Origin: Dyella sp. 2HG41-7
Lineage (GTDB): Bacteria > Pseudomonadota > Gammaproteobacteria > Xanthomonadales > Rhodanobacteraceae
DNA: 64,000 bases
Assembly (NCBI RefSeq): GCF_021390675.1
Contig: NZ_JAJEJV010000004.1
Location: forward strand, 310,001-374,000
Direction: 5' to 3'
This document shows, piece by piece, positions 35,495 through 63,805 of this stretch. The position numbers were made by a program, and so were the translations under genes. The notes beneath the pieces were generated by a model, which saw only the letters and a program-made list of their open reading frames with translations, ran no database searches and was not told the origin of the DNA. Numbering within the stretch: the first letter of the stretch is position 1; each line of letters starts with the position of its first letter.

Positions 35495-35530
35495 ATCGCA
35501 TGATTGGAATACTGGTCGGTTCAACCAGCG

Positions 35531-35555: not shown

Positions 35556-35605
35556 TTTAGCGTGACTTTCAAAGTAACTTAATGAAACTTTAGGGGAGGA
35601 AAAAC

Positions 35606-36070: not shown

Positions 36071-36075
36071 CCGGC

Positions 36076-36099
36076 GTGTGCTTCCGACCCAAAGCAAAC
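36076..36099 (+). repeat. Array repeat copy 5
   Basis: GTGTGCTTCCGACCCAAAGC then AAAC, 5 nt after the preceding stop. Confidence 0.75.
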
Positions 36100-36139
36100 G
36101 CCGCTCTTGGCGGTCGAGAATCGAAAATTCGGGGGCTAA

Positions 36140-36454: not shown

Positions 36455-36470
36455 TGGAATACGTATCAAA

Positions 36471-36496
36471 CGTCCGCTTCCGACCCAAAGCGCACA
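36471..36496 (+). repeat. Array repeat copy 6
   Basis: CGTCCGCTTCCGACCCAAAG then CGCACA: nearly full copy, 16 nt after the preceding stop. Confidence 0.85.
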
Positions 36497-36545
36497 CTGG
36501 AAGATTCCATAGAGCAAACTTCCCTTACGATGCTCAGTAGATAAT

Positions 36546-37073: not shown

Positions 37074-37100
37074 ATGATCGACTCCTAATCCTAGTAAATA

Positions 37101-37124
37101 ACGCCCGCGTTCAACCCAAGACGG
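37101..37124 (+). repeat. Array repeat copy 7 (degenerate, right end of array 1)
   Basis: ACGCCCGCGTTCAACCCAAG then ACGG: decayed copy 27 nt after the last array gene. Beyond it GC-rich chromosome resumes. Confidence 0.45.
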
Positions 37125-37222
37125 CCAGGCCGACCGAGGCCTGCTAAAAACTCTCCCAGAGCATTGTCGATTTCCGACCATCAGCTTCGTCGTCTAGGTA
37201 TCACAACCCCAAAGGTGCTCCC

Positions 37223-37594
37223 ATGAAATACCTAGGCCTTGCCTACTTCACCCCCGAAAAGTTCGCCGCGCTGGCGCCGGAAGAGCGCAAGAAGGTGGTG
37301 AGCCAATGCCCGGAATTGGACGAGAAGATGCGCGCCACCGGCAAGGTGCTGGTCTCCGCGTCACTGGGCGATCTGGACCACTGGAGGACGCTGCGTACGC
37401 GCGGCGGCAAGAAGCAGGTCAGCGATGGGCCTTACATCGAGTCGAAGGAAGTGGTGGGCGGCCTGTTCATCATCGAGGCGGATAGCCATGAGGAGGCGTT
37501 GCGCATCGCATCCATGCACCCGGCCGCCATGATCGGCGAAGAATGCGACTGGGCGGTCGAGCTTATCCCCATGGATTTTTACTTGGCGCAATGA
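37223..37594 (+). CDS. YciI-family (DGPF) protein
   Basis: 123 residues. KYLGLAYFTPEKFAALAPEE at the N-terminus, VSDGPYIESKEVVGGLFIIEAD in the middle and a C-terminal ELIPMDFYL match the YCII/DGPF group often encoded beside ECF sigma factors; no sigma factor is adjacent here. AAAGGTG lies upstream. Codon use returns to the GC-rich style after array 1. Function unknown. Confidence 0.88.
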   Translation: MKYLGLAYFTPEKFAALAPEERKKVVSQCPELDEKMRATGKVLVSASLGDLDHWRTLRTRGGKKQVSDGPYIESKEVVGGLFIIEADSHEEALRIASMHPAAMIGEECDWAVELIPMDFYLAQ

Positions 37595-52037: not shown

Positions 52038-52276
52038 AAGTTTGAGGTTCGCGGCATTAAATCACTTAATAACTCACGCCGAGAGGCAATCTTCAGAGTT
52101 CCCTGACGCTGGAGTTGAGCGACGACAAGCGACCGTCGAACGAAGTGATAGCTTTAGAAATTACAAAGGCGCAGTGGGCTTTTGTTCCCCTTGAAAGCGT
52201 TGCCTTTCTTTGTAGGAATCACCTTTAGTCTAAGGTCCGCTTTGGGTCGGAAGCATACACAGACCCGCTGACTTCC
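52038..52276. other. Right border region of array 2
   Basis: 239 nt between the MocR gene and the first array-2 gene. It holds the terminal array repeat at 52234 and no gene. Confidence 0.4.
52234..52258 (-). repeat. Array-2 repeat copy 1 (outer end)
   Basis: On the minus strand GTATGCTTCCGACCCAAAGC then GGACC. It lies 18 nt after the stop of the last array-2 gene. Confidence 0.8.
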
Positions 52277-52774
52277 CTATTTCACTCTCACTGCACGATA
52301 AAAGACACCTTCGAAGTCGATAAGCAACTCGTCTCTGCTTTTGACGTAGACGTCCTGGCCGGGGATCGGAAATGCTCCGAAGCAATTGCCCGAACTCGCG
52401 TGGTTTATGACGATTTCAGTCACGATCGGAGTATCAATCCCAACCCAGTTGAACCGTACGCGTGTATTGGCCAGAAAGTCGTCCGAAGAGATGTGATTGA
52501 CCTCTATGGAATTGATCGGCGTTGATACTCCGCAAGCCTTTATTTCATCGTCACTCAAGATAACACTGGTATTTAGCAGTTTATTTTGCTGCGAAAGAGT
52601 TGGACCTTGAATGTTTGGTGTCCAGTAGATAGACCTAAGTATCCACGTTCCTTTCGGCAGATGCCGTTGCTCTGACGAATTGGCTTGAGCGAAGCAATCG
52701 GACGCCAAGTGGATACAAAGTAGACCAACAAAGAAGATCGCTGCTGGTTGAAATGCCCGGGTGATGCGTCGCAC
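52277..52774 (-). CDS. Secreted hypothetical protein of array 2
   Basis: 165 residues. Signal peptide FFVGLLCIHLASDCFAQAN. The mature part has LSDDEIKACGVSTPINSIE and CFGAFPIPGQDVYVKSRDE with two Cys. The start is GTG at 52774, supported by AAGGAG 7 nt upstream. No family recognised. Confidence 0.78.
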   Translation of the reverse strand: MRRITRAFQPAAIFFVGLLCIHLASDCFAQANSSEQRHLPKGTWILRSIYWTPNIQGPTLSQQNKLLNTSVILSDDEIKACGVSTPINSIEVNHISSDDFLANTRVRFNWVGIDTPIVTEIVINHASSGNCFGAFPIPGQDVYVKSRDELLIDFEGVFYRAVRVK

Positions 52775-52820
52775 CGTAAAGCTCCTTGCGGCAAATGTTC
52801 CATCCGGCGACTGACTTAAT

Positions 52821-52844
52821 GTCTGCTTTGGGTCGGGAGCGGAC
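52821..52844 (-). repeat. Array-2 repeat copy 2
   Basis: Minus strand GTCCGCTCCCGACCCAAAGC then AGAC. It begins 1 nt after the TAA of the gene at 52846. Confidence 0.85.
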
Positions 52845-52845
52845 C

Positions 52846-53238
52846 TTAGTCGTCGGTCGTCGGATAGCTGTTGATCGACAGACTTATCCCCAATCTCCCC
52901 AGTGTTGCAAGCGTTTCCACTGGCAGGTCCACGGAGGCTGCAAACTGCTCCTGCGTTCCCACCGTGAAAGCTATCGATAGTTCCGCGAAGCCATCACTAG
53001 CGGCGAAATTTGCGCTTCGTTCCACGCAGTGAGTCAGGAATCCGGTGACCATCTCCATCATTTCCACCGGGCTTTCGACGTCAGCTAGGTCAAAAGTATG
53101 TCCGAATGTCGTGTATGCGCCGCCGCGTGAAGATGTTTCACCCGTACGCCACGATCCGGTCGGATCGATGCCTAACACCTGGTGGATTCCATCGACATAG
53201 CCGGACGATCCCTCAATCCTAAGCACGACCAAATTCAT
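52846..53238 (-). CDS. DUF4279-like protein (candidate immunity protein)
   Basis: 130 residues: LVVLRIEGSSGYVDGIHQVLGIDPTGSWRTGE, read as two overlapping pieces, is the 'h-~h~g--dp--~t--LGi-Pt--w~~G-' pattern of DUF4279, with SIAFTVGTQEQFAASVDLP and a final strand. Members are often found next to polymorphic toxins. AAGGA lies 8 nt before the ATG. The array repeat overlaps its stop region. Confidence 0.72.
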   Translation of the reverse strand: MNLVVLRIEGSSGYVDGIHQVLGIDPTGSWRTGETSSRGGAYTTFGHTFDLADVESPVEMMEMVTGFLTHCVERSANFAASDGFAELSIAFTVGTQEQFAASVDLPVETLATLGRLGISLSINSYPTTDD

Positions 53239-53268
53239 TAGCTCAATCCTTGTTGCTTACATTCCAAA

Positions 53269-53306
53269 TGTCCGCTTCGGGTGGCGGCCGCCGTCGAAAG
53301 CGGACA
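53269..53306 (-). repeat. Array-2 repeat copy 3 with 12-bp insertion
   Basis: TGTCCGCTTCGGGTGGCGGC and CGCCGTCGAAAGCGGACA: a complete copy whose loop is split by GTGGCGGCCGCC. Arms are intact. It lies 12 nt after the stop of the gene at 53319. Confidence 0.85.
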
Positions 53307-53318
53307 CTCCAGTGTCAT

Positions 53319-53543
53319 CTATGTAGCCTTAACTACGACCAGATGCGGACCATCGCTTAGGCACTTAAGCCGATCTTCAAGATGCACATGATCGAAGTTG
53401 TCGCTCTCCATCTCGGCCGCCAGCTGCTCAAGAACCCTCGCAACAGCTCTTAATTCGGCCGAGTCAGTCAAGATACTGACCTCCGAAAGCTCCATAAGCC
53501 GCGCTTGCTGATCTTTCCCTTCTTCGTAACCAAACAACTTCAT
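53319..53543 (-). CDS. Imm32-family immunity protein
   Basis: 74 residues: MKLFGYEEGKDQQARLMELS followed by EVSILTDSAELRAVARVLEQ, an Ala-rich helix, then FDHVHLEDRLKC and a final VVVKAT. This is the Imm32 pattern (start MKLFGY, E-V-h, F-H-HL-D). Imm32 members protect against secreted polymorphic toxins. No toxin gene adjoins it. GTGGGG precedes the ATG. Confidence 0.82.
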   Translation of the reverse strand: MKLFGYEEGKDQQARLMELSEVSILTDSAELRAVARVLEQLAAEMESDNFDHVHLEDRLKCLSDGPHLVVVKAT

Positions 53544-53570
53544 GTTGGCCCCACTGTGTGATCTTCCAAC

Positions 53571-53594
53571 TGTCCACTTCGAATCAAAAGGGGC
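53571..53594 (-). repeat. Array-2 repeat copy 4 (degenerate)
   Basis: TGTCCACTTCGAATCAAAAG then GGGC: left arm recognisable, right arm decayed. 3 nt after the preceding gene's stop. Confidence 0.5.
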
Positions 53595-53597
53595 TTC

Positions 53598-54008
53598 CTA
53601 ACCTTGTGAAAGTAGAAACTTGCTTATCTCTCGCCGGAGTTCCAAGTCACTGAGCCCGTGGGCTTCATCATCTGCGGCAATGGCGTATTGGCGGGCCAAG
53701 TCTTCCTGACCTTTGCTCCTATAACGCTCAGCCAATGCTAATCGCGCCGATACGCGGTAGTCCCGAGCATCCTCAGACGTCGCGGCGTCGAGAGCCCGGA
53801 GATACAGCGGTATCGCCGCGTTATCATCAATTGTAAAGTCCCCGAGACTCTCCCACAGAAACGGGTGGTCGTACCCATCTAAGCTCTGTGCTTCACAGTA
53901 GTCTCTTAGCGCGTTGTAGTGCACCCAATACCGGTCGCCCCGGTGTTCGTCCGCAAGGAGGGATGCGAACCCCATTACTCGCTCCCAGACATCCGTCCTT
54001 AATTCCAT
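53598..54008 (-). CDS. TPR-like hypothetical protein of array 2
   Basis: 136 residues, all helical. AAIPLYLRALDAATSEDARD and ALAERYRSKGQEDLARQYAI are TPR-like repeats, and the protein ends with a helix. GGAAGGA lies 7 nt before the ATG at 54008; the longer frame to 54068 reads through the repeat. It may be an immunity or scaffold protein; no family assigned. Confidence 0.72.
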   Translation of the reverse strand: MELRTDVWERVMGFASLLADEHRGDRYWVHYNALRDYCEAQSLDGYDHPFLWESLGDFTIDDNAAIPLYLRALDAATSEDARDYRVSARLALAERYRSKGQEDLARQYAIAADDEAHGLSDLELRREISKFLLSQG

Positions 54009-54042
54009 TAAATCATCCTTCCGCTCTTTCCTCGCGCGGAAC

Positions 54043-54066
54043 GGTCGCTTTGAGTTGGAAGCGGAC
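54043..54066 (-). repeat. Array-2 repeat copy 5
   Basis: Minus strand GTCCGCTTCCAACTCAAAGC then GACC. It lies 7 nt after the stop of the gene at 54074. Confidence 0.75.
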
Positions 54067-54073
54067 ATCCCAT

Positions 54074-54562
54074 TTATCCCACACCGTTGAGAGCCACCTC
54101 GGAGAATTGCCGGGTTTTGGGATCATAAAGTGCTCCCCAAAACGAATCGCCGCCGTCACACACGACAACTGGCTTGTGCATTAACGCATCCCAATTTTCG
54201 TTACTTCGAGGCGATCTCTGATCTCGAAAGGCGTTTATATAAACGTATTTTCTACCTCGTATCGTCACTCCGACATATTGTCTGAGGTACGAGCCAGGAT
54301 TTTGTACCGATACCCCTGATACGCAGCATTGTTGTGATTTCAGTTCGGATAGCTTGCTGAGATCAAGTTCCAATTGCGCCACTAAAGTCGGCGAAACCGT
54401 CCACGCGCCATCAACATCCCTAGGCGTTGAACGGGAGCATTGTTTAAGAACCAGTTCCGCTTGGTCCGGCGACATAATGAACCCGTGGTCCATAGAAGAT
54501 GAATCTAGCGCCGTTCCGAGAGCTAAGAATAGAAAACACAAACATTGCGTATCTTTGCGCAT
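54074..54562 (-). CDS. Secreted hypothetical protein of array 2
   Basis: 162 residues. Signal peptide CLCFLFLALGTALDSSS, then a soluble domain with PRDVDGAWTVSPTLVAQLEL, a Cys pair QQCCVSGV, and a C-terminal VVVCDGGDSFWGALYDP. The AAGGAGG 8 nt upstream favours ATG 54562. Similar small proteins with 'GxxYVYxNAF' are common and uncharacterised. No family assigned. Confidence 0.75.
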   Translation of the reverse strand: MRKDTQCLCFLFLALGTALDSSSMDHGFIMSPDQAELVLKQCSRSTPRDVDGAWTVSPTLVAQLELDLSKLSELKSQQCCVSGVSVQNPGSYLRQYVGVTIRGRKYVYINAFRDQRSPRSNENWDALMHKPVVVCDGGDSFWGALYDPKTRQFSEVALNGVG

Positions 54563-54604
54563 ATCCACAGCCTCCTTATTCTCGTAGTTTTTCCTACTCG
54601 GCGG

Positions 54605-54629
54605 TGTCAGCTTAGGGTCGAAAGTTGAC
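54605..54629 (-). repeat. Array-2 repeat copy 6
   Basis: TGTCAGCTTAGGGTCGAAAG then TTGAC: core and both arms recognisable, 7 nt after the stop of the gene at 54637. Confidence 0.75.
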
Positions 54630-54636
54630 TATAGCT

Positions 54637-55047
54637 CTACAGCCCCTGGCTAGCAGGAAACGGCAACCCATCCCAACCACGGCGATCGCGTACCCTCTCC
54701 ACCCGAGACCAAACGTCTTCGGTCATCACGTTTCGCCAAACTCCACCTAACAAGAAGGCAAAACTTGGATCGGCGGCAGCATGGGCCTCCACTCGGTCGA
54801 TGACGTACTCTCCATGCGTCGCCAACAGATCCTCCAGCGGACCAGCAGATAGGTTCTCAGCAACAGCCTGCGACTTGTCCATGTTCCATGCGGCAACAAT
54901 AAAAGCCCAAGCCTCATCTGGAGAGCTACGGCAAAGCTCATCAACTTCTTCGAACGCCCAGAACAGCTGCTCGTGTTCGGTAGAGTCAAGCATTGTGTAT
55001 TGGAGGGCCAACCACGATGAGACCAGTTCGGACTGGGAGCACCTCAT
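54637..55047 (-). CDS. DUF6869-like protein
   Basis: 136 residues: SQSELVSSWLALQYTMLDST, AFEEVDELCRSSPDEAWAFI and GPLEDLLATHGEYVIDRVEA form the DUF6869 pattern (W at the N-terminus, 'P-~-W--I' and 'GPLEdlL--hG'). The start at 55047 has GAGGG upstream and overlaps the neighbour by 62 nt; ATG 54993 would remove family residues. Function unknown; often found in immunity-like clusters. Confidence 0.68.
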   Translation of the reverse strand: MRCSQSELVSSWLALQYTMLDSTEHEQLFWAFEEVDELCRSSPDEAWAFIVAAWNMDKSQAVAENLSAGPLEDLLATHGEYVIDRVEAHAAADPSFAFLLGGVWRNVMTEDVWSRVERVRDRRGWDGLPFPASQGL

Positions 55048-55297
55048 TCGACAAAGCCCTCTCTTGGAAGATATAGGAAGGCGGATCAGCGCTTGGAGTA
55101 TCGACGTAAACAATCTTCCAGCCGCTTAGCTCGAAGGCTTGGAGAATCGTTACACACTGTACGTTGAGCTGCCTTGCGATTGCACTGGCCCATTCGATCC
55201 TCTGCGATTCCGAGAAGTCACGCCTAACCAAGTCGCATGGTGAAGCTGCGGTAACGCCGCTGGCGAAGAGCATTCCGGTCAAAAGCAATGAACGCAT
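54986..55297 (-). CDS. Secreted hypothetical protein of array 2
   Basis: 103 residues with signal peptide (LLLTGMLFASGVTAAS). The mature part has two Cys (ASPCDLVRRD, LNVQCVTILQ). AGGGGA precedes the ATG at 55297. It overlaps the DUF6869 gene by 62 nt, so this unit carries two genes without a repeat between them. Confidence 0.68.
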   Translation of the reverse strand: MRSLLLTGMLFASGVTAASPCDLVRRDFSESQRIEWASAIARQLNVQCVTILQAFELSGWKIVYVDTPSADPPSYIFQERALSNEVLPVRTGLIVVGPPIHNA

Positions 55298-55324
55298 ACG
55301 TCCCCTGAATTGGTGTCTCGGCAA

Positions 55325-55350
55325 TGCCCGCTTCGGGTCGAAAGCGGGCA
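55325..55350 (-). repeat. Array-2 repeat copy 7
   Basis: TGCCCGCTTCGGGTCGAAAG then CGGGCA: a perfect compensated palindrome (both arms changed from TGTCCGC to TGCCCGC). Confidence 0.88.
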
Positions 55351-55393
55351 CGCATGGGAACTAGCGGCCCTATAAAGCTGCACTAAAGTTTTC

Positions 55394-55681
55394 TTAATTT
55401 CTTTGCTTACTTTTAGCTCTAGCCCCCAGAACAAGGCGCAGCATTGACCAGATAGCTAAAAGTTGAACGATCAGTCCGACGGTAAAACTACCTCGACCAG
55501 CGCTGTGAACCCCACCAAATGCATACCCCAAGATAACCGCTGGAGCCGTGAGCAACCCCGTGACCAGCCTTACGCTTTCGGTCATATTGGCCTGAAGCCA
55601 ATCGCTATATAAAAGCGCAGTTGTCGCAAACGCAATTCCTGTGACTAAGAAACCTTCCATGACGAGCCGCAACTTTTTCAC
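55394..55681 (-). CDS. Small membrane protein of array 2
   Basis: 95 residues with three hydrophobic segments (FLVTGIAFATTALLYSDWL, LVTGLLTAPAVILGYAFGG, FTVGLIVQLLAIWSMLRLV). Starts at GTG 55681 with GAGG upstream. The family is not recognised; similar array genes elsewhere in this window are also small membrane proteins. Confidence 0.68.
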   Translation of the reverse strand: MKKLRLVMEGFLVTGIAFATTALLYSDWLQANMTESVRLVTGLLTAPAVILGYAFGGVHSAGRGSFTVGLIVQLLAIWSMLRLVLGARAKSKQRN

Positions 55682-55735
55682 TGTCTATATGCCTCATGAA
55701 GCAGATGACTGCACCAAGATCACTTCTGCTAAGAC

Positions 55736-55760
55736 TGTCCGCCCTGGGTCGAAAGGGACA
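55736..55760 (-). repeat. Array-2 repeat copy 8
   Basis: TGTCCGCCCTGGGTCGAAAG then GGACA. It is directly adjacent to the stop codon of the gene at 55761. Confidence 0.82.
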
Positions 55761-56270
55761 CTACGGAATACCTTCGCGAATGGGGCGAGAGCCTTTTGCG
55801 CAGCGATATAGCGCAGCCCCGACCCGAGGCAGGAGTTCGACCGCGTCCTCCCTCGAATCTGCCCACAGCTTTATGTAGATCCTGTCGACATAGCTCGTTA
55901 CCGCGTCGTGGACGGTACCCGCAGTGAAGCCATAGAGTCTTTCTTCGCGCGGAGCGTGGTTGACGTATTCGCCAACAAGCGACATCGTTGCTGGCAATTC
56001 CTTTGTTTCAACAGCCTTCCATTGTTTGAAATCACCTTCAAACCTATCAGGTCCCGGGTAGCGACTGATCTCGTAGGTCACCACATGCCTACTTCTACGG
56101 ATGGTTCCCATGATTCCGTCGATACCTACCACGAAGGTGAACTTGTATTGAGATGGATCTCGAATGCAGATCTGAAATGAAGGGCTGATGGCGTGAGGCT
56201 CATCAGCCGATAGGCACGTCATCGGCACCAAAGCGAGTACGCATATAAAAATGATCTTCCGAAGGATCAA
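55761..56270 (-). CDS. Secreted hypothetical protein of array 2
   Basis: 169 residues. Signal peptide IIFICVLALVPMTCLSADE. Mature domain with SFQICIRDPSQYKFTFVVGI, WKAVETKELPATM and a C-terminal VGAALYRCAKG, two Cys. The start is TTG at 56270, backed by GGAGG 4 nt upstream. Its function is unknown. Confidence 0.75.
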   Translation of the reverse strand: MILRKIIFICVLALVPMTCLSADEPHAISPSFQICIRDPSQYKFTFVVGIDGIMGTIRRSRHVVTYEISRYPGPDRFEGDFKQWKAVETKELPATMSLVGEYVNHAPREERLYGFTAGTVHDAVTSYVDRIYIKLWADSREDAVELLPRVGAALYRCAKGSRPIREGIP

Positions 56271-56317
56271 GTCGCCTCCAACTAGATAAAAGCCTTCCTT
56301 GCCAGGGGCCTCTCATA

Positions 56318-56343
56318 TGTCAGCTTTGGGTCGAAAGTAGGCA
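56318..56343 (-). repeat. Array-2 repeat copy 9
   Basis: TGTCAGCTTTGGGTCGAAAG then TAGGCA. Core intact, arms partly changed. Confidence 0.75.
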
Positions 56344-56403
56344 CTCCTATCGTAGTGCTCGACACTGGTCAAAGGTCATGCTCACGCCGTCGTCAGCAGA
56401 AGC

Positions 56404-56784
56404 TCATCTATTAAATGAAAGCGACGAACTAACCATCCAAAGTTTGGCGGGAGCAGATGGATCATCCAGGTCCGTGACCACGACGATGGGGTCATCGGCA
56501 CCTGCTTCGACTTTAAGGACTTTCATTGCTTCGACCTTATCGAAAGCGCCACAGTGCCCGTTGAGGTAGGCGAAAAACGAACCCTTATCGCCATTCTTGG
56601 CAATATCTTGCGCCCGTTGTAGTTCTTCCTTTGAATTGCATGCAATGGTTGCGCGTTTCGCATAGACGGTTTGACCGACATTAAAGATGCCACCTTCGGA
56701 CGAAAGCGCGAGAGGACTGTATTGGTAACTAGTCATGCCCATGGCTAGAGCAACGACGATGCGAGTGGGGTGCGAGATTTTCAT
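56404..56784 (-). CDS. Secreted hypothetical protein of array 2
   Basis: 126 residues. Signal-like N-terminus (RIVVALAMGMTSYQYSPLAL) and mature part with GGIFNVGQTVYAKRATIACN, then VVVTDLDDPSAPAKLWMVSS. The two Cys (ACNSKEEL, GHCGAF) may pair. AAGGA lies about 5 nt upstream of the ATG. No family assigned. Confidence 0.72.
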   Translation of the reverse strand: MKISHPTRIVVALAMGMTSYQYSPLALSSEGGIFNVGQTVYAKRATIACNSKEELQRAQDIAKNGDKGSFFAYLNGHCGAFDKVEAMKVLKVEAGADDPIVVVTDLDDPSAPAKLWMVSSSLSFNR

Positions 56785-56873
56785 GCTGATCCTTATTCCT
56801 TGGAAAACGAGTCACAGGGCATTTTATCGAATTGCAACGTGTCAATGGCTTGAGTTTTTGCATAACCATTTAG

Positions 56874-56899
56874 CGTCCACCTAGGGTCGAAAGCGGACG
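56874..56899 (-). repeat. Array-2 repeat copy 10
   Basis: CGTCCACCTAGGGTCGAAAG then CGGACG. Outer bases of both arms changed together (CGTCC / GGACG), keeping the stem. Confidence 0.8.
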
Positions 56900-57000
56900 T
56901 CTTCCCGCAGTCAATGGATCTTTCTCCAATGTCTTCAGGGCATCGAGCAAAACCAGGAACCGCTCGATGGCGAAATGGCGCCCATTTTTCCCCTAGTTTG

Positions 57001-57723
57001 TTACCGAGCTAACTCAGCCTCTCCATTCTCAATGTTGTCGGTAATCTCTAAGCTCGAATTTGCTCTCGATTCGACAAGCACAGTTCTTAAGAAATAGGTT
57101 TGAAGTTCAATCGGGTGACCGGAGAGTGCTGCGAGTAAACCCCAGGGCGATTTGCTCATGTGCTCGGACGACTCAAGGACCACTAGAGATTTCGAATCTT
57201 CAGACCACTTAAAATCTTGAATAATGCGGCCAGAATCGATGCTCATTATTACCGACATGTCCGACACCTTATACACGGCGGCCTCGGTAACAGCAGTAGT
57301 TGCCTGATCTTGCATTCCAGCTAATACGAATTGGTGATCTGGACTGAAGCACGCCCATCTTAACCATCTCCCTTGGCTAGGCAGCGTCGCTGCCGCGCGC
57401 TGGAGGGCAACGCGCTTCTCCATTAAATGTGCAACCAACTCTCCAATTGGATCGCGTTGCGCGTCAACAGGATTTGCTTCCAACAATTTTGCGGGACCGT
57501 CCGGCACTATCGCCTCATACACCTTCGATTGCTTGTAGTTAACTATCCGCACCCGAACTGCCTTGGATTCAGCGGGCAAGACCTGCGCCGCAGTAGTTTG
57601 TGCGCGTGATGGGTTGCTCCAGCCCAAGCCGGACATGAGAAGCACTACCAATAGTCCTTGTATCAGTCGCGGGCAGAGCACTCTAATCTTCGACGCACCC
57701 AACAAAATTCGCACATATCCCAT
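57001..57723 (-). CDS. Exported hypothetical protein of array 2
   Basis: 240 residues. A hydrophobic segment (LIQGLLVVLLMSGLG) at about residues 20-35 is a late signal peptide or anchor. RWACFSPDHQFVLAGMQDQA and FKWSEDSKSLVVLESSEH look like two beta-propeller (WD/TolB-like) blades, too few for a whole propeller. The array repeat lies inside the longer frame upstream, so the ATG at 57723 is used. Confidence 0.65.
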   Translation of the reverse strand: MGYVRILLGASKIRVLCPRLIQGLLVVLLMSGLGWSNPSRAQTTAAQVLPAESKAVRVRIVNYKQSKVYEAIVPDGPAKLLEANPVDAQRDPIGELVAHLMEKRVALQRAAATLPSQGRWLRWACFSPDHQFVLAGMQDQATTAVTEAAVYKVSDMSVIMSIDSGRIIQDFKWSEDSKSLVVLESSEHMSKSPWGLLAALSGHPIELQTYFLRTVLVESRANSSLEITDNIENGEAELAR

Positions 57724-57750
57724 ATGGTCGACTACTTCTAGGTTGGCCAA

Positions 57751-57775
57751 TGTCAGCTTTGGGTCGGAAGCGGAC
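57751..57775 (-). repeat. Array-2 repeat copy 11
   Basis: TGTCAGCTTTGGGTCGGAAG then CGGAC. Confidence 0.82.
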
Positions 57776-57830
57776 GCGCCTCGGTAGGCACGCACATCTG
57801 CGTCAGGAATGGTTAGCCATCGCAGAAAGG

Positions 57831-58076
57831 TCATTGCAGTACTTCGATCTCCGAGTCGAGCACGTCACCAGCCCAACGAATGCTTCCGTCCACATTGCGG
57901 CAAACAACCAGGCCCATAGGCTCCCCATTTGAGCCGGTAAATCCTTGATCGAGTTCCACGATATCGCCAGCCTTGGCCTGCTTGCCTTCCCCCACGGTTC
58001 CATCTACTCGTTCAGGAGGAATATTTACGAGCAAGCGAGCTTTTCGAGCACTACGATGTTCCACGCACCATCTCAC
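57831..58076 (-). CDS. Small hypothetical protein of array 2
   Basis: About 81 residues: KARLLVNIPPERVDG, then AGDIVELDQGFTGSNGEPMG and GLVVCRNVDGSIRWAGDV, a small beta-rich (SH3-like) protein. The start is uncertain: GTG 58076 is chosen, since the only upstream ATG (58151) lies inside the array repeat and would translate it. Confidence 0.58.
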   Translation of the reverse strand: MRWCVEHRSARKARLLVNIPPERVDGTVGEGKQAKAGDIVELDQGFTGSNGEPMGLVVCRNVDGSIRWAGDVLDSEIEVLQ

Positions 58077-58124
58077 TAGCCGATTTCGCGACCGCAATAC
58101 TCGCCTACACCCAATTATCTCTAA

Positions 58125-58150
58125 GGTCCGCTTCGGGTCGAAAGCAGACA
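58125..58150 (-). repeat. Array-2 repeat copy 12
   Basis: GGTCCGCTTCGGGTCGAAAG then CAGACA: full copy. Reading the opposite strand gives a spurious MSAFDPKRTL frame. Confidence 0.85.
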
Positions 58151-58281
58151 TTAGCTAATATCGTTTCATAATGAAGTATATAGGCGCAGAGTTTCCATTT
58201 AGTCGACCATGAGGTAGTACGCCGTCAAAGGGTTTATATTGCTTGGGTGCCGCCACAAAGCATCCGGACAGGACGATAGAG

Positions 58282-60267
58282 ATGTTTGATTTTTTCAGGA
58301 AGCGCAAGAAGGCGCTCGTTACACCTTCCCCAACGTTCAAACCGACAAATGAGATGGAACCGACGACGACGCCTCGCTTGGTGGATGTCGTCGATGCCTA
58401 TGGCCGCTCGTTTCAAATACCGCTCGAACAATGGCGACGCGACGTCCTGAAACCTAACCTCGAAGCCAAGTGGAACGAGCCCGAAGGGCTCTATTCCTTA
58501 GTCATCTCAGCTCTTAGGGATGATTTGGCTCTCGATGTCGACCAAGCCAGCGCCAGGCTGATGGAAATTGATCCAGTCGTCGAACGAGGTTTCGTTACGC
58601 GGGCTATCGTACAGTTAAGGCTTGGGCGAGCCAGAGATGCGGGAGCAACTCTCCGTCAAGCCATATTGAAGGTCGGTGAAACGGGGGTTCTCGTAACCAA
58701 TCAAGCCAAGGTCATTAGCGCAGAAGGAAATCATGCGTTAGCCATGTCCACATTGGATCATTCCCTCGAGCTTGATCCCAATCAAGACAATGGCCTTAAT
58801 TGGCGAGTGGCCGAAATTACTGAAGCCTCAGGAGCAGATGCGGCACGCGCGTTCCTGAGTGGCTTAGCTCAACGCCCCGATGCTTGGAGGCCACAACTAT
58901 TGTTGGGGCAACTCGCTATCAACGCAGGTCAACAAAAAGACGGATTGGTTTGGTTCGATCAAGCATTGAACCAAGCGCCGCACGGCGCGGACGTAATGCT
59001 GGTCGTGAGCGGTGAACTCGGTCGGCAGGGTCTGCTCAACGATTTGGTCCAGCGCGTCGCTCCAATCTATGACGAACACCGTGATGACATCCGAGTCGGC
59101 TATAACTTGCTGCAAGCGTATGTGGATCTCGGTGACGCTTCGACTGGGGCTGCGCTGTTGGAGCGGTTGTTCGCCCTTGGACAGCCGGCCTTTGCAAACC
59201 ACTTACAGGACTTCGCGAAGACATTCGACGATATGATCAAGCAGGGGCCGAAAGTTCTAAATCGGGCGCCTGAAATTTCCATCCTGCAGATGGAGTTGCC
59301 GCCTTGGTTGCTCGGCATGGAAGGAATGGAATGGGCTGCTCCGTCTCGAGGTCGCGACCATCCACGAGTAGCTGTACTTCCATTGGCAGCAGTCGATGAG
59401 TTATCTGGAGACGTTGCTCGCAGCGGACGGGAAGACGAGCGAGGCAGATTATCGCGCGCGCTTCCTCTGTTTATTCTTGAGCAACTTATCTTTTGCAGCG
59501 ATTTGAATGCCGCATTGAACCTGCCAGTCGCGGATGGCCATGGACTGGTGATGTTCGGGGGTGCAGTAGACGACGAGCAACTCGAACTTATGGCGGGGGA
59601 CTTCGATCTCGTCGTCGAAGGTGAAGTTTCTCAATCTGAAGACGGTTTTAAAATCGTCTGCCGACTGAGAAAACTAAGTGATTTGTCGACCCTGAAACGA
59701 GTGGAGCGACATTTCAAAGACGAGGAGATCGGACATTCCTTGATGATCATGTCAGGCGAGGTATTGGCAGCAATCGGTGTTGCTGCTTCAACGTCTATTG
59801 AGCCCAGGGTCCCCATCTATGCGCTTCCCGCTACGCGCACGAACGAATATCTGAGTGCACTAGGGCAGTACTTAGCTATGACTTTGGCCTGTTCCGCCAA
59901 CGCGCGAGATTCCCTTTATGGCGAGCGCAATATCTACGGTTGGCTGCAGACCCTGGCCGTGTCAATTCCAGACAACGAGCCGGCCCAATTCATGTACTTC
60001 ACGGCCCTTGCCAAGGGGCGTCGCATGAAATCACCCATCGTCGATGAATTTGAGCGCCCAGCTGTCCAGCGGATGCGAGATTTGGTTCGTGCCGGACGTT
60101 ACTCGGCGAGACTGCTGCCCCTCCTAGCAGCGGTCTATCCAAACAATACTGAGCTCGGTGATTTGCTCGCTTCGGCGAAACCACCTGAAGATGAATCGTA
60201 TTCTGCGTGGTGCGGTCGCCTGCCAAGCGTATTTCCATTGACGCCAAATTCGCCTTCTAAGTTCTAG
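58282..60267 (+). CDS. TPR protein with TolB/FlgO-like domain
   Basis: 661 residues, the largest gene of array 2 and the only one on the plus strand. TPR-type helices cover about 80-330 (ARLMEIDPVVERGFVTRAIV, LGRARDAGATLRQAI, ALNQAPHGADVMLVV). RVAVLPLAAVDELSGD then FDLVVEGEVSQSEDGFKIVC form the TolB N-terminal/FlgO-like pattern often fused to TPR or adenylate-cyclase proteins. AGGA lies 8 nt before the ATG. No enzymatic domain seen. Confidence 0.82.
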   Translation: MFDFFRKRKKALVTPSPTFKPTNEMEPTTTPRLVDVVDAYGRSFQIPLEQWRRDVLKPNLEAKWNEPEGLYSLVISALRDDLALDVDQASARLMEIDPVVERGFVTRAIVQLRLGRARDAGATLRQAILKVGETGVLVTNQAKVISAEGNHALAMSTLDHSLELDPNQDNGLNWRVAEITEASGADAARAFLSGLAQRPDAWRPQLLLGQLAINAGQQKDGLVWFDQALNQAPHGADVMLVVSGELGRQGLLNDLVQRVAPIYDEHRDDIRVGYNLLQAYVDLGDASTGAALLERLFALGQPAFANHLQDFAKTFDDMIKQGPKVLNRAPEISILQMELPPWLLGMEGMEWAAPSRGRDHPRVAVLPLAAVDELSGDVARSGREDERGRLSRALPLFILEQLIFCSDLNAALNLPVADGHGLVMFGGAVDDEQLELMAGDFDLVVEGEVSQSEDGFKIVCRLRKLSDLSTLKRVERHFKDEEIGHSLMIMSGEVLAAIGVAASTSIEPRVPIYALPATRTNEYLSALGQYLAMTLACSANARDSLYGERNIYGWLQTLAVSIPDNEPAQFMYFTALAKGRRMKSPIVDEFERPAVQRMRDLVRAGRYSARLLPLLAAVYPNNTELGDLLASAKPPEDESYSAWCGRLPSVFPLTPNSPSKF

Positions 60268-60367
60268 TTCCGCTCATTTCATTAGGTGCAATGAAGCAAC
60301 AAACTATCGCCGACGGGTTAAGCGAATGAATTTGTCTGGTTGGGATGGGGTCGTTGCGATTCTGAGG

Positions 60368-60393
60368 TGTCCGCTTTGGGTCGAAAGCAGACA
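60368..60393 (-). repeat. Array-2 repeat copy 13
   Basis: TGTCCGCTTTGGGTCGAAAG then CAGACA. It lies 11 nt after the stop of the minus-strand gene at 60405. Confidence 0.88.
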
Positions 60394-60404
60394 TTTCATA
60401 TTAA

Positions 60405-60851
60405 TCAAATACGAGTGTTCTTCATCCATTTGTAGTCTGCGGTTGGACTAATTTTCTTAGCAATGCTTCGAGCACTCATTTGCTGTGCCACATATCGAAC
60501 CGCCTCATCACGGCATGATCGCGGCCACCACGCTGGTGGGGCTAGCGCAAACCGCTTGGTATTACCGATTAGCAATAACGGACCCATCGCAGAATATTCT
60601 GCGGATGAAATATCGCCCCAAGAAATTTGCCACTTGCCAAGCTTGGACGAGTAGGAAAGAGACTCGCCGCTAATTGTGTATGCACCACTAGCCGCGGCCA
60701 AATATAAAGAACCCAAGACAAGAGCTGAAAAAAATAGCGCTGCCGCATGGCTGCCAGAAGTGAATGAGCCCACTACGCCTATCGCGGAAAAGGCACATCC
60801 GCCGAAAGCCACTCGCCGATAAGTACGCATGTCAATGTAAATTTCGGTCAT
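60405..60851 (-). CDS. PH-like membrane protein of array 2
   Basis: 148 residues. Two adjacent hydrophobic helices (FGGCAFSAIGVVGSF; ALFFSALVLGSLYLAAAS) precede a small beta domain (ISGESLSYSSKLGKWQISWG, then PLLLIGNTKRFALAPP) like the bacterial PH domains of DUF6585/PH-6 type. AAAGGA lies 6 nt before the ATG at 60851. Function unknown. Confidence 0.7.
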   Translation of the reverse strand: MTEIYIDMRTYRRVAFGGCAFSAIGVVGSFTSGSHAAALFFSALVLGSLYLAAASGAYTISGESLSYSSKLGKWQISWGDISSAEYSAMGPLLLIGNTKRFALAPPAWWPRSCRDEAVRYVAQQMSARSIAKKISPTADYKWMKNTRI

Positions 60852-61073
60852 ATCAATTCCTTTTCCCAAATGTCTGTATATGGACTCCTCCCCTTTGCCA
60901 AGCGTCCCGTAGCGGCGGCTACTTTCCATCACGCAAGCCTTTGTTTGACTTTATTTGCTTTGGATCGCGCCGGGCATCGCCACAAGAAGCGTGCTGGACT
61001 GTCCCGGTATACACGCTACTTGTTTTCAGCCCTGGATTTGCGGGCAGTGGTGCATAGCCTCGATTGGGCAGTA
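60852..61073. other. Intergenic region, no gene or repeat seen
   Basis: 222 nt between the PH-like gene and the hydrolase. It has no array repeat, unlike other boundaries in array 2. Confidence 0.4.
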
Positions 61074-62081
61074 CTACCTCGGTGACTGCTGCGCCATTTC
61101 CAGGGCTTGCATAACCGCCTTGGCCACCGCATTCGGCTGATCGATCTGGATGTCATGCGAGGTATCTGGAACGTGCGCCAGCGTGCCGCGGGAGGAGGTG
61201 GCGACGATCTGCGCCTGCGTGTGGGCCCGGGCTTCTTCCAGCCCTTTGCGGTCACGCGGCAGCGCATCGGCATAGGTGTTGGCGGCGGACAGCACGATCA
61301 GGGGCGTCGAGCCGTGCGTCTCCTGCTTTGACACAGGTGGCTTGAACACCACGGGATTGTTTTGCAGAACCGATATCACGGTGTGCCAGTACGCAGGCTT
61401 CGACATGAGCGCCAGGTTCGCCGCGTTGAGCTTGGCGCTGGCGTGCGGATCAGGCTCACCGAGGCACTGGCTCAGTTCCTTATGGGTGGACGACAGTTCG
61501 TGCTTTTCGGCGGCAGCCTCGCACTGCCGAAGAAACGCGAACCGCTGTACCGAGAGGGTGTCCTCATCCTTCTGCCAGCCGGGGGCAAACTGGCCGATGT
61601 TCTGCGCGGGCGGATCAAGCAGGACCATCGCGCTCACGTCCGCCGGATAGCTGCTCGCGTATTGCCGAACGATGTTGCTGCCCAGCGAATGCCCCACCAT
61701 CACCAGCGGCGTCGTAAGGCCGGCGCGCTGAATCAGTGCGTGCAGATCCGACACGTCGGCGTCGAGATCTCGCGGCATCGCCCCCTCGCTGCTAAAGCCG
61801 AACCCGGCCCGGTCGTACGCGCAGACGCGCGCGTGGGCTGCAATGAGTGGCTGCACCTTGAACCATGTGGAGGAATCGGCGACCGCGCCAGCCTCCAGCA
61901 TGACGGTCTGCGGCCCGCTGCCCGAACAGCGCAGATTGAGGTAGTGGCCATGGCCAAGGTCGATCAGCTTCGCCGCGTGCGCATAGCTGTCCGGCATGCG
62001 CTGCGGCGTGGTGGCGTCGGTGGCTGTGGCCTGCCCATTTATCACGGCCAACAGAAAGGCGCCGCCCGCTTTCAGGTACAT
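61074..62081 (-). CDS. Secreted alpha/beta hydrolase
   Basis: 335 residues. Signal peptide (GGAFLLAVINGQATATDA). Nucleophile elbow GHSLGSN, oxyanion HGHYLNLRCSGSG region, and C-terminal His in DTSHDIQIDQP complete the triad. CAYDRAGFGFS matches the family. Clearly more GC-rich than neighbours. The start at 62081 is preferred; longer frames reach 62159. Confidence 0.8.
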   Translation of the reverse strand: MYLKAGGAFLLAVINGQATATDATTPQRMPDSYAHAAKLIDLGHGHYLNLRCSGSGPQTVMLEAGAVADSSTWFKVQPLIAAHARVCAYDRAGFGFSSEGAMPRDLDADVSDLHALIQRAGLTTPLVMVGHSLGSNIVRQYASSYPADVSAMVLLDPPAQNIGQFAPGWQKDEDTLSVQRFAFLRQCEAAAEKHELSSTHKELSQCLGEPDPHASAKLNAANLALMSKPAYWHTVISVLQNNPVVFKPPVSKQETHGSTPLIVLSAANTYADALPRDRKGLEEARAHTQAQIVATSSRGTLAHVPDTSHDIQIDQPNAVAKAVMQALEMAQQSPR

Positions 62082-62414
62082 CCTGTTCAAGGTGTGTCTC
62101 CCGTCGATGGCCCGAGCAGGGCGCCGGGCAGGCCGCTTCATAGACTTGAAGCGGCGCAAGAAGTTCAGGGCGTTCGGGTCACTTGAGCAAAACGGGGCGG
62201 TTCATTTCATGAAATGGATACGCGAAACCGGAGTCACGCGAATATCGGATCAGCGTAGGGCATGGTAGCTATTGCCATGATTGTCGGTGCAAGGGTGAAG
62301 GCGGATTTTCTAGCCATCCTTCCCTCTCCAAACTCCTAACCGCTCTTTAGGCGACCGATGGACATCCCTGATGTTGTTAGCGGAAAAGTTTCCGCTTTGG
62401 GTCGAAAGCGGGCA
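62082..62414. other. Intergenic region, array repeat at its end
   Basis: 333 nt without a gene. The GC content falls from the hydrolase side to the array side. It ends with array repeat copy 14. Confidence 0.4.
62389..62414 (-). repeat. Array-2 repeat copy 14
   Basis: TTTCCGCTTTGGGTCGAAAG then CGGGCA, directly adjacent to the stop codon of the gene at 62415. An extra GCGGAAAAGTTTCCGC palindrome abuts it. Confidence 0.82.
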
Positions 62415-62801
62415 TTACGCTGCGCGCCAAGGGATGACCTTGGCAACCAACACGAATGCTATGTATGCGGCTGGCGTGGTTAGCACGCCCAGCCCGAAAC
62501 GGGCCCAATAATTCGTGGGGCTTCGAAGAAAAGAGAGTGCCAGCCCTCCCAATGCAACCGCCAGATAGGGCGCGAAAGTCATCACCCACATTGCATAGAA
62601 CGCAAAGATGTCTGACTTTTCCCTTGAAATAAGATAGCTAACCGCTATCGCGCCGTACAAACACAGCGCGGGAAAGAGCGCTCCAAGTATGACGATGGCC
62701 CTTGGTCGAACTCGGGGCCTTAGCGCCATGAATATAAGCAACCCGACTGGAATGCCAAGCTCCAGGGCGATCGCACCAATGGTCAAGGTTGTCTCAGTCA
62801 T
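62415..62801 (-). CDS. Small membrane protein of array 2
   Basis: 128 residues with four hydrophobic helices (LTIGAIALELGIPVGLLIF; AIVILGALFPALCLYGAIAV; FAPYLAVALGGLALSFL; LGVLTTPAAYIAFVLVAKV). GGATGGAG precedes the ATG. Family not recognised. Confidence 0.72.
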   Translation of the reverse strand: MTETTLTIGAIALELGIPVGLLIFMALRPRVRPRAIVILGALFPALCLYGAIAVSYLISREKSDIFAFYAMWVMTFAPYLAVALGGLALSFLRSPTNYWARFGLGVLTTPAAYIAFVLVAKVIPWRAA

Positions 62802-62835
62802 GCTCCATCCGCTTAGAGACCGACTATTTGCATTC

Positions 62836-62860
62836 CGCCCGCTTCGGATCGGCAGTGGAC
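62836..62860 (-). repeat. Array-2 repeat copy 15 (degenerate)
   Basis: CGCCCGCTTCGGATCGGCAG then TGGAC, 1 nt before the stop of the fragment at 62862. Confidence 0.65.
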
Positions 62861-62861
62861 A

Positions 62862-63010
62862 TTACGGCCGCATGATTGCGTAGGTAGAAACCGTACCGTC
62901 ATTATCAAGCATCACTAGCCTGGACGCAGAAGCACTGATAAGTGCCGTTCCCTCATCGGCGCCATAGCCAATCTTCAGTCGATTGCCGTCAATTTTCCAA
63001 ACGCGATTAG
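62862..63010 (-). pseudogene. 3' gene fragment without a start, joined to array repeat
   Basis: About 48 codons (VWKIDGNRLKIGYGADEGTA, ASRLVMLDNDGTVSTYAIMRP) run into copy 16 of the repeat with no start codon between them. The only ATG is beyond the repeat and would translate it. This looks like the C-terminal remnant of a gene whose 5' part was lost at the repeat. Confidence 0.55.
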
Positions 63011-63034
63011 GTCTGCTATGGGTCGAATGCGGAC
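63011..63034 (-). repeat. Array-2 repeat copy 16
   Basis: GTCTGCTATGGGTCGAATGC then GGAC. Both arms carry compensatory-type changes (TGCTA / AATGC). It is 21 nt from the next gene. Confidence 0.8.
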
Positions 63035-63055
63035 ATTCGAGCGGCAATGAAGCGA

Positions 63056-63454
63056 CTACGACTTGACGATGTGACCGCCCACCATGCCAAGAATCATTTC
63101 CCGCGTCAGGCGAATTCCATGAGTCTGACCAGGATTAACAGCGGCTTCGCATTGGCCAGTTTTGATGATATCTAAAAGTCTTGGCCAAAGCAGATGACCT
63201 GGTACTAAGGCAAGAGTTGCTTGAGGGGCATTTAGCGACAGTACGAACTCTCGGTGAGTGAATAAAGGTAGTTCATGCACCTTGTTATCTGCTGGGTAGC
63301 TCAGAAAATGCATTGCTGCCACATTATGCTCGGTTCCTGCTTTAACCAGAACCCAAAACTGAGCTTCAGCTAGCTGCTGATATAAAACGACAACGCGAGA
63401 AGGGTCGCTCCTCAATTTTTGCAAAGTATCGACTAGGTAGTCTTGTGGCTGCAT
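63056..63454 (-). CDS. SseB-like protein
   Basis: 132 residues. VVVLYQQLAEAQFWVLVKAG, ELPLFTHREFVLSLNAPQAT and CEAAVNPGQTHGIRLT fit the SseB N-terminal domain (helix, 'vyvP', 'lp-Ft---~l', and 'g--vviNPg---g~-l'). In other bacteria SseB-type genes occur both as secretion-related and as immunity-cluster genes. No cognate partner here. Confidence 0.68.
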   Translation of the reverse strand: MQPQDYLVDTLQKLRSDPSRVVVLYQQLAEAQFWVLVKAGTEHNVAAMHFLSYPADNKVHELPLFTHREFVLSLNAPQATLALVPGHLLWPRLLDIIKTGQCEAAVNPGQTHGIRLTREMILGMVGGHIVKS

Positions 63455-63482
63455 AAGGTCACTACTCGTTGATATTTTTAAA

Positions 63483-63507
63483 TGACTGCTTCGGGTCGGA
63501 AGCGGAC
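63483..63507 (-). repeat. Array-2 repeat copy 17
   Basis: TGACTGCTTCGGGTCGGAAG then CGGAC. It is 1 nt before the stop codon of the gene at 63509. Confidence 0.82.
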
Positions 63508-63508
63508 C

Positions 63509-63754
63509 TTAATCAGCCCGACAGTCTGCAACCTCTTTCCCGACATCATCGAGAAGTGCCATAAAATCGCGCAACGGGACAGTCAACTGTGTTGGCCTAT
63601 CTTTTCTCACAACGTCGACGAAAAGCTCAACTTCGAGCACTCTATCCGAGCGCTCATTTCGCACACGACAGAGCACTTGTGCGTCGTATGAGATTTCTGC
63701 GGCCAAGTATTCGAAGTCCATCGGGCTTACAAAATCCACTGTAAAACCGGACAT
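63509..63754 (-). CDS. Small hypothetical protein of array 2
   Basis: 81 residues, alpha/beta: VDFVSPMDFEYLAAEISYDA, then VLEVELFVDVVRKDRPTQLT and LRDFMALLDDVGKEVADC. GGAG lies 6 nt before the ATG at 63754. It resembles small immunity proteins in size and context; family not assigned. Confidence 0.65.
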   Translation of the reverse strand: MSGFTVDFVSPMDFEYLAAEISYDAQVLCRVRNERSDRVLEVELFVDVVRKDRPTQLTVPLRDFMALLDDVGKEVADCRAD

Positions 63755-63786
63755 GAAACACTCCATTCCATTCAACTAGCTTGCAA

Positions 63787-63805
63787 TGTCCGCTTTGGGT
63801 TGCGG
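63787..63805 (-). repeat. Array-2 repeat copy 18 (partial)
   Basis: TGTCCGCTTTGGGTTGCGG: left arm and core only. The array may continue beyond the window. Confidence 0.6.

Follow-up and report, generated by a model that had tools for sequence, protein, structure and literature searches.

A row of small genes in Dyella sp. 2HG41-7, each set apart from the next by a palindromic repeat of about 24 bp, raises the question of whether these genes move as cassettes and, if so, by what means. The row occupies the end of the 64,000-nucleotide stretch of contig NZ_JAJEJV010000004.1 analyzed here (positions 310,001 to 374,000; hereafter the window, to which coordinates refer). We consider it very probable that this array behaves as a set of cassettes, because homologous units of other arrays stop at the repeat, hereafter the site. 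Judged by its sequence, the site is not an attC. As to how the units move, we give an even chance to a double-stranded recombination site whose recombinase works in trans or has since been lost; site-specific recombination is unproven. Below, G000 is the genome under study, other G-numbers are compared genomes, L-numbers are sequence stretches and C-numbers are contigs of the genome under study.

Sites and units in the window, the genome and the genus

A search of the window with the 20-nt pattern GTCCGCTTTCGACCCAAAGC, allowing up to 3 mismatches, gave 17 matches, compared with none in 100 shuffled sequences. A search with the complete 24-mer, at up to 6 mismatches, resolved the main array (array A) into 15 uninterrupted copies between 52235 and 63507 and two interrupted ones (53270-53305 and 63788-63800), 17 in all and every one on the minus strand. 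The array that the initial annotation had described is therefore real, but its count of 18 copies comes down to 17. The orientation it had reported, constant relative to minus-strand genes, holds for all sites, with the exception of one unit that carries a plus-strand gene (58243-60267). Its further statement that most copies lie 0-20 nt after a stop codon is true of the window (10 of 15 minus-strand units) but not of the genus, where 66 of 160 units have a stop at that distance and the median is 29.5 nt. The G+C content of the main array is 51-57% per 2-kb step, that of the remaining window mostly 54-63%.

Across the whole genome we listed 37 sites with up to 3 mismatches, 33 of which fall into six clusters, corresponding to six arrays. 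This distribution speaks against repeats equally common after ordinary housekeeping operons, which had been named beforehand as a sign against cassettes. Two of the clusters touch the window; the main array (C4:362-385k) continues for about 11 kb beyond the window end. Within the genus set of 16 genomes, own genome included, 14 carry the site (up to 2 mismatches), and the arrays were collected as 43 stretches with 250 site copies, a set picked around sites and hence uninformative on isolated copies. In these stretches, 196 of 200 neighboring sites less than 4 kb apart share the same orientation. Units were defined as 150-2500 bp between like-oriented sites with an open reading frame (ORF) of at least 50 aa, and the longest ORF was taken, by a crude rule, as the unit gene. 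By this rule the main ORF lies on the strand of the site in 160 of 178 units and on the opposite strand in 18, while four further units have no ORF. The median unit is 621 bp.

Exchange of units between arrays

When the main array was compared with the genus by BLAST, blocks of homology began or ended at sites. One unit has a second copy on contig C3 (88% identity) and another recurs in G015 (78%). We extended this comparison, which is one across species, to an all-against-all search of the 43 stretches, keeping blocks 120-2500 bp long and at least 75% identical whose midpoints lie within arrays on both sides. This gave 33 blocks with 66 ends. In both sequences compared, 31 of these ends are no more than 12 nt from a site, and 6 blocks are bounded in this way at each end; in 1000 circular shifts of the site positions the mean was 0.2 ends and the maximum 3, and no block was ever bounded at both ends. 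Some of the 33 blocks are a single unit seen in several genomes, so that not all are independent.

The step in identity at the site is visible in individual pairs. In 17 upstream-site pairs the identity rises from near background ahead of the site to 41-94% beyond it, and in 13 downstream-site pairs it falls from 54-100% ahead of the site to, mostly, background beyond it; the pairs had been chosen by an alignment end within 30 nt of a site, which builds in part of the step and leaves its sharpness as the informative feature. Pairs at 88-96% identity that stop at sites include the own duplicate on C3, L181/L182, L184/L204 and L190/L204. Homology is likewise bounded by sites at 95-96% in L056/L089 (two Dyella) and L057/L124 (Dyella and Rhodanobacter), and at 79% in the Lysobacter pair L026/L116.

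Site architecture and breakpoints

The site has the consensus GTCYGCTTY-CGACCC-RAAGCRGAC, extended to RRY-GTCYGCTTY-CGACCC-RAAGCRGAC-RYY. In the 250 copies the information is high over 24 positions and drops within about 3 nt on either side, and positions 10-15, CGACCC, are among the most uniform. The site is therefore made up of two inverted arms, each of about 12 bp, separated by a 6-bp spacer that is asymmetric and almost invariant. Two arms with a 6-bp spacer are the layout of tyrosine-recombinase core sites of the dif or lox kind. The GTTRRRY/RYYYAAC boxes are absent from the composition of the 250 sites, as the initial annotation had observed for the GTTRRRY cores.

The arms do not covary. 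In 230 copies, Fisher tests gave p 0.41 for positions 4/21 and p 0.63 for positions 9/16, and the number of Watson-Crick pairs per site was 7.07, compared with 7.005 after shuffling of the right arms (123 of 2000 shuffles at least as high); the copies had been collected by their likeness to the consensus, which slightly penalizes double changes. A covariation score computed for 43 of the 54 own copies (41 distinct) was 0.145 versus 0.143 in the shuffled set. This lack of covariation would argue against selection for a hairpin, whether in RNA or in single-stranded DNA, and is in keeping with a double-stranded site. It also bears on the main alternative of the initial annotation, serial terminators or hairpins at mRNA 3' ends copied by gene conversion. 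The position of the sites after stop codons is what such hairpins would predict; however, perfect 9-bp stems occur in only 24 of 230 sites, no T-run follows the stem beyond ATT, as an intrinsic terminator would require, and whole units move. We regard this explanation as extremely improbable.

Breakpoints between exchanged units were located in 34 site pairs with at least 86% identity. If a single breakpoint common to all pairs is assumed, positions 9-15 fit best, and confining the breakpoint to one or the other arm costs 6.6-8.3 log units relative to the spacer. Associations between positions (z>3) were found in 6 of 78 and 8 of 120 pairs within the two halves and in 2 of 208 across them; the within-half figures are inflated by the nearness of the positions, and a commoner association within halves is expected where halves have been re-paired. 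On this comparative evidence breakpoints lie within the repeat and are centered on the spacer, which bears out, across species, the cassette-like array of the initial annotation.

Breakpoints that are spread over the repeat are the outcome that homologous recombination would give. The palindrome could accordingly have another role, such as protein binding, with units swapped by homologous or illegitimate recombination between repeats of 24-30 bp, for instance during natural transformation. This explanation gains from the better fit of a model with spread breakpoints, from the lack of a dedicated recombinase in the own genome and from the occurrence of attC-type and site-type boundaries within the same arrays (both described below). 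It leaves unexplained why 24-30 bp with a near-invariant spacer are kept amid random flanks, why the same sequence occurs in distant Pseudomonadota and why site-like sequence stands beside a recombinase family. A repeat of 24-30 bp also offers little homology for RecA. We judge shuffling by short homology to be rather unlikely.

Integron remains in the arrays

The arrays have a strong link to integrons. The integrase model TIGR02249 (intI) scored above its cut-off in 4 of the 16 genus genomes, and the own genome is not among them. Counting sites with up to 2 mismatches, G010 has two intI genes and 31 sites, G008 one intI and 10 sites, and G011 a broken intI and 24 sites. Arrays of attC sites stand beside intI in G009, G010 and G011; the contig of G008 gave none. 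A covariance model built from 29 attC sites, those of L185, L040, L120 and L139 among them, gave 16 matches in 48 sources (761,651 bases), one place being counted twice (window/L017), and 14 matches in 67 other sources. In the window it gave one weak match only.

The two kinds of boundary meet directly. In L185, L184, L067, L074 and L188 the R' box of an attC (GTTGAAY or GTTGAGT) abuts a site, the attC of L188 being weak (12.2 bits, E 0.4). One array of G011 runs from the broken intI through three attC to two sites. A unit of G011 with an attC upstream and a site downstream recurs in a site array of G014. An attI-like stretch follows a site at 23-27 nt in L185, L190 and L205. The own array has a degenerate attI-like stretch without intI (L018, about 9540-9680, outside the window), which aligns with the intI-linked attI of G010 and G011 and lies upstream of a gene read as GFA-like. 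Either former integrons underlie the arrays, or cassettes of the two kinds have been intermixing.

These remains lend some weight to the view that the sites are variant attC used by IntI and that the arrays are integrase-less remains of the CALIN kind. The attI remnant in the own array and in the arrays of three relatives, the five abutting R' boxes, the mixed array of G011, the shared cassette genes and the intI of the site-bearing G010 and G008 would all be expected of an unusual integron. However, the sites lack GTTRRRY/RYYYAAC boxes and covariation, and their breakpoint is centered on the middle of the site and not on an outer box. In a sample of 200 genomes of the order, moreover, IntI (E<=1e-70) was found in 102 and the site (up to 1 mismatch) in 17; none of the seven site-rich genomes, those with at least ten copies (23, 27, 12, 20, 37, 10 and 17), which represent three genera only, is among the 102 carriers of IntI. 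Five genomes of this sample with a single copy do carry IntI. An integron of unusual type appears to us an unlikely explanation.

Tyrosine recombinases and a candidate family

A profile search of the own genome found five PF00589 genes, which from their proteins we read as XerC, XerD, two near-identical P4-like integrases and one other phage-type integrase. The nearest lies more than 100 kb from any listed site, in agreement with the earlier remark that no integrase is in view. The REP-associated Y1 transposase (PF01797) was absent from the genome by profile search, so that the TnpA-REP/RAYT connection proposed for checking found no counterpart there. Among the ORFs of 129 stretches, no shared recombinase was recognized by reading the 40 largest clusters. 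Homology to XerC, XerD, IntI, P4-like or phage integrases appeared as one match each in six site-bearing stretches (L052, L066, L098, L111, L117 and L182), with E values from 6e-93 to 2e-5, and these matches do not form one family.

One of the six stands out by its position. In L117 (Pseudoxanthomonas sp. PXM01), a minus-strand frame of 231 codons (3917-4609; PF00589, E 6e-15) lies between a site at 3864 (minus strand, 1 mismatch, 30 nt away) and a perfect site at 4625 (plus strand), the two in opposite orientations. The protein, of about 207 aa, is mainly a catalytic domain, and its best NCBIfam matches are XerC-like and far under the cut-off. Relatives (E<=1e-20) were found in 438 of 72,556 plasmid records.

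We examined 300-nt flanks of the gene in 22 of these 438 records (44 flanks; L296 left out as a repeat of L293), a set that includes the near-duplicates L300 and L301 and for which gene ends were assumed wherever a record was unannotated. A degenerate site with up to 5 of 24 mismatches was found in 10 of the 44 flanks, compared with 0.2 in shuffled sequences and 1 of 44 at 600-900 nt; at up to 6 mismatches the numbers were 19 of 44, 3.0 and 4. Eight of the records had been seen before the pattern was fixed; the 14 unseen ones gave 7 of 28 flanks at up to 5 mismatches and 12 of 28 at up to 6. A test of the arms with any spacer was weaker (mean 4.95 mismatches versus 5.46). Site-like sequence accompanies the short recombinase family, whose link to the Dyella arrays is one that we infer. 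In the plasmid relatives a site-like sequence often follows the gene at 15-50 nt.

Viral contigs were a further candidate source of relatives of the L117 recombinase: 10 stretches matched a pattern and none was confirmed. Five viral contigs carry an exact site. Weak integrase matches (lowest E 2e-6) occur in two of the five, a number too small for conclusions.

Sites beyond the genus

An exact-match scan of species genomes returned at least 120 stretches, nearly all labeled Pseudomonadota. Among the matches listed are Lysobacter, Dyella, Frateuria, Rhodanobacter, Sphingomonas, Caulobacter, Massilia, Ramlibacter and others, and the labels outside Pseudomonadota include a Nitrospinaceae bin and a Nitrospirota bin. 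In a sample of the phylum, 14 of 398 genomes had the site (up to 1 mismatch). Neighboring sites agree in orientation in 19 of 25 cases in Lysobacter, 17 of 17 in sphingomonads and 15 of 15 in Caulobacter.

Lysobacter sites are often paired with an inverted second site about 59 nt away whose spacer is TGGCCG, and sphingomonad sites often have a neighbor about 35 nt away with the spacer CCACCC. Pairs of TGGCCG with CGACCC were seen in L116, L129, L037 and L238, the last a viral contig, often with a G+C-rich palindrome in between, and pairs of CCACCC with CGACCC in L032, L127, L062 and L082. On plasmids of Pantoea, Klebsiella and Citrobacter (L285-L287) the extended palindrome occurs with intact arms and a different spacer. 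Among the best 40 of the 224 plasmid records from the plasmid and phage search for this palindrome, most had E 5; the best was a Pantoea plasmid (E 2e-4).

Within the genus, the left flank of a G010 array (2034 bp, 87%) was found in G011, where the following 17 kb are without a site, so that presence of the array differs between these two genomes; the right flank was not found in this same-locus comparison. A small-gene region recurs near array ends (L022 8377-9155, L188 13750-14525, L019 13076-13446, L202 1777-2180) and also near intI in L225. As a linked module it was rejected: it has no recombinase and also occurs away from arrays.

An IS30-type element at the sites

The last site of the window is a half-site (63788-63800) that runs into the terminal repeat of an IS30-type element. 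This element of about 235 bp, from window position 63801 to about L018:35, has IS30-type terminal repeats at both ends and sits at the center of the site. Of 51 distinct element ends in the collected sequence, 46 abut a half-site (up to 4 of 13 mismatches). The half-sites come in two forms, which share the central AC of the site; the fraction is biased upward because many stretches had been chosen for their sites. Insertion is thus at the center of a palindrome with a 2-bp overlap, as at IS30 hot spots. In the copy of L080 (Lysobacter arvi), an ORF of 389 aa without interruption reaches 296 bits with the IS30 transposase model (cut-off 80). A copy in G457 (L260) is not within a site. The 10-bp insert at 53270-53305 is probably an IS30-type footprint. 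Draft contigs of site-rich relatives (L246, L247, L255, L256 and L258) end in the element, which means that their arrays are probably longer than assembled.

The element could itself be the driver, the sites being its target hot spots and rearrangement between its copies shuffling the units. The frequency of half-sites at its ends and the transposase in one copy are in keeping with this, as are the nearly palindromic hot spots and the deletions and inversions reported for IS30 (PMC9333248). Yet 15 of the 17 sites of the window array have neither element nor footprint, exchanged units are bounded by element-free sites, and among 12 genomes searched the site-bearing G010, G014 and G533 gave no element matches. 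We hold it very unlikely that an IS30-type element drives the exchange.

A possible mechanism and its relation to known systems

A different mobilization system, which the initial annotation had offered as one reading, is the one we favor, although it is unproven; the arrays are mixed with integron parts, and a candidate recombinase family was found elsewhere. The moving unit would be one small gene, sometimes two, reaching from inside one site to inside the next. The asymmetric spacer would fix orientation, and units would be gained, lost and swapped head to tail. A short tyrosine recombinase may act on the arms in trans, or may have done so before its loss, with the exchange presumably falling in the spacer; it might have taken over cassettes first collected by an integron, the arrays being built on integron remains. 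Drawn more widely, this would be an undescribed double-stranded cassette system of Pseudomonadota as a whole, with a short, catalytic-domain-only tyrosine recombinase that is plasmid-borne or itself a cassette, a common arm motif, swappable 6-bp spacers as compatibility tags (CGACCC in Dyella; TGGCCG and CCACCC in the paired sites of Lysobacter and Sphingomonas) and integron cassettes taken over after loss of intI. We put this wider proposal forward tentatively, as somewhat less than an even prospect.

Several observations weigh against the proposed site and recombinase. In the PF00589 search of the own genome, no gene belonged to the candidate family and no integrase gene lay near an array; the dif of this genome (C4:2471301, one mismatch to the dif pattern) is unlike the site. 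A close site-like match is lacking in most of the plasmid flanks (34 of 44). When five family members were searched by tblastn against 285 stretches, 246 of them with a site, a full member was found only in L117; a 49-aa piece, without a Pfam match, lies in L140 (Sphingomicrobium), 67 nt from a site. Another piece, of 36 aa, is found in the site-rich genome G457 (L253) at a distance of 1.3 kb from a site. A breakpoint left free for each pair anywhere in the repeat beats one confined to the spacer by 2.1-11.9 log units, depending on divergence, and 8 of the 34 pairs favor a break outside the spacer; because the spread model fits better, we do not claim strand exchange in the spacer. The strand rule weakens outside Dyella by a crude count (same versus opposite strand: Lysobacter 14 and 5, sphingomonads 9 and 8, Caulobacter 4 and 11). 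Relatives of the alpha/beta hydrolase gene at 61074-62159 in G012 and G015 (86-91%) do not end at sites. Finally, the movement of units is read from comparison across species and may lie in the past.

The arrays resemble integrons and CALINs in their small genes with one 3' site each, in constant orientation, in some shared cassette genes and in being physically mixed with attI and attC remains; they differ by a site that is a 24-30 bp palindrome without R boxes, with a central breakpoint and no arm covariation, and by the lack of intI in the own genome. The dif modules of Acinetobacter plasmids (pdif/XerCD) are also genes flanked by short two-arm sites, and XerC and XerD are present in the own genome as read from its proteins. 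The sites of dif modules have two arms and a 6-bp spacer. Orientation alternates in pdif, whereas the sites described here point one way and, as said, differ from the own dif. REP/BIME elements with their RAYT are likewise intergenic palindromes and insertion-sequence targets, the latter according to PMC1525189; in contrast, the units here move as cassettes and the own genome lacks the Y1 transposase. IS30 hot spots, according to PMC9333248, are near-palindromic targets struck at the center with 2 bp, whereas those seen here are cassette boundaries in arrays. A literature text search found the repeat string, and the peptide fragments it could encode, in no paper, and the listings and abstract beginnings returned by other searches contain no such site.

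The textbook case of gene cassettes whose recombination sites are portable is the integron. If a shorter, double-stranded site also bounds exchangeable cassettes, the pools of cassette genes would exceed those counted by attC searches, integrase-less arrays need not be dead, and a common, little-noticed family of short plasmid recombinases may have a role. The presence of attI and attC in the same arrays makes their history testable.

Features of the window

The sites and ORFs of the main array and the features of a second array (B) are collected in Table 1.

Table 1. Sites, cassette ORFs and related features of the window, with the search that supports each where one is given.
Feature	Position	Strand	Evidence
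Site, 3'-most of array A	52235..52258	-	24-mer search
Site	52821..52844	-	24-mer search
Site with 10-bp insert at center between doubled AC; probable IS30-type footprint	53270..53305	-	
Site; start of 75% homology to G001	54043..54066	-	24-mer search, BLAST
Site	54606..54629	-	24-mer search
Site	55326..55349	-	24-mer search
Site, 6 mismatches	55737..55760	-	24-mer search
Site	56319..56342	-	24-mer search
Site	56875..56898	-	24-mer search
Site; 3' boundary of unit shared with G015 (78%)	57752..57775	-	24-mer search, BLAST
Site; 5' boundary of G015-shared unit (78%)	58126..58149	-	24-mer search, BLAST
Site	60369..60392	-	24-mer search
Site	62390..62413	-	24-mer search
Site, 6 mismatches	62837..62860	-	24-mer search
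Site	63011..63034	-	24-mer search
Site; 3' boundary of unit with second copy on contig C3 (88%)	63484..63507	-	24-mer search, BLAST
Half-site split by IS30-type miniature element (element from 63801, beyond window end)	63788..63800	-	
Array B, six sites (34199, 34720, 35192, 36076, 36472, 37103)	34199..37126	+	24-mer search
Cassette ORF, 165 aa, no Pfam	52277..52774	-	
Cassette ORF, weak DUF4279 below cut-off	52846..53238	-	
Cassette ORF, Imm32	53319..53543	-	
Cassette ORF, no Pfam; real start probably internal	53598..54068	-	
Cassette ORF, no Pfam	54074..54568	-	
Cassette ORF, DUF6869	54637..55113	-	
Second ORF of DUF6869 unit, no Pfam; listed start within site 55326-55349	54986..55351	-	
Cassette ORF, no Pfam	55394..55681	-	
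Cassette ORF, no Pfam	55761..56270	-	
Cassette ORF, no Pfam	56404..56784	-	
Cassette ORF, no Pfam; listed start past site 57752-57775	57001..57834	-	
Cassette ORF, no Pfam	57831..58151	-	
Opposite-strand ORF, weak TPR below cut-off	58243..60267	+	
Cassette ORF, no Pfam	60405..60932	-	
Cassette ORF, alpha/beta hydrolase	61074..62159	-	
Cassette ORF, no Pfam	62415..62801	-	
Cassette ORF, 61 aa, no Pfam	62862..63047	-	
Cassette ORF, SseB N-terminal domain family	63056..63454	-	
Cassette ORF, no Pfam; second copy on contig C3	63509..63775	-	
Array B cassette ORF, YCII-related; relatives within G001, G007, G010 arrays	37223..37594	+	
Weak attC-like match (18.4 bits, E 0.004), 80 nt 3' of the 3'-most site of array A	52100..52154	-	

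A scan of positions 34000-64000 for RNA families gave nothing convincing at the sites; a symR-like match at 40068-40146 (E 0.0013, 36.8 bits) is under the gathering score of 61. A lone degenerate copy of the site with 5 mismatches lies away from the arrays at 48762-48785. The cargo of the window consists in part of immunity-like small proteins (Imm32, DUF6869 and the weak DUF4279 match).

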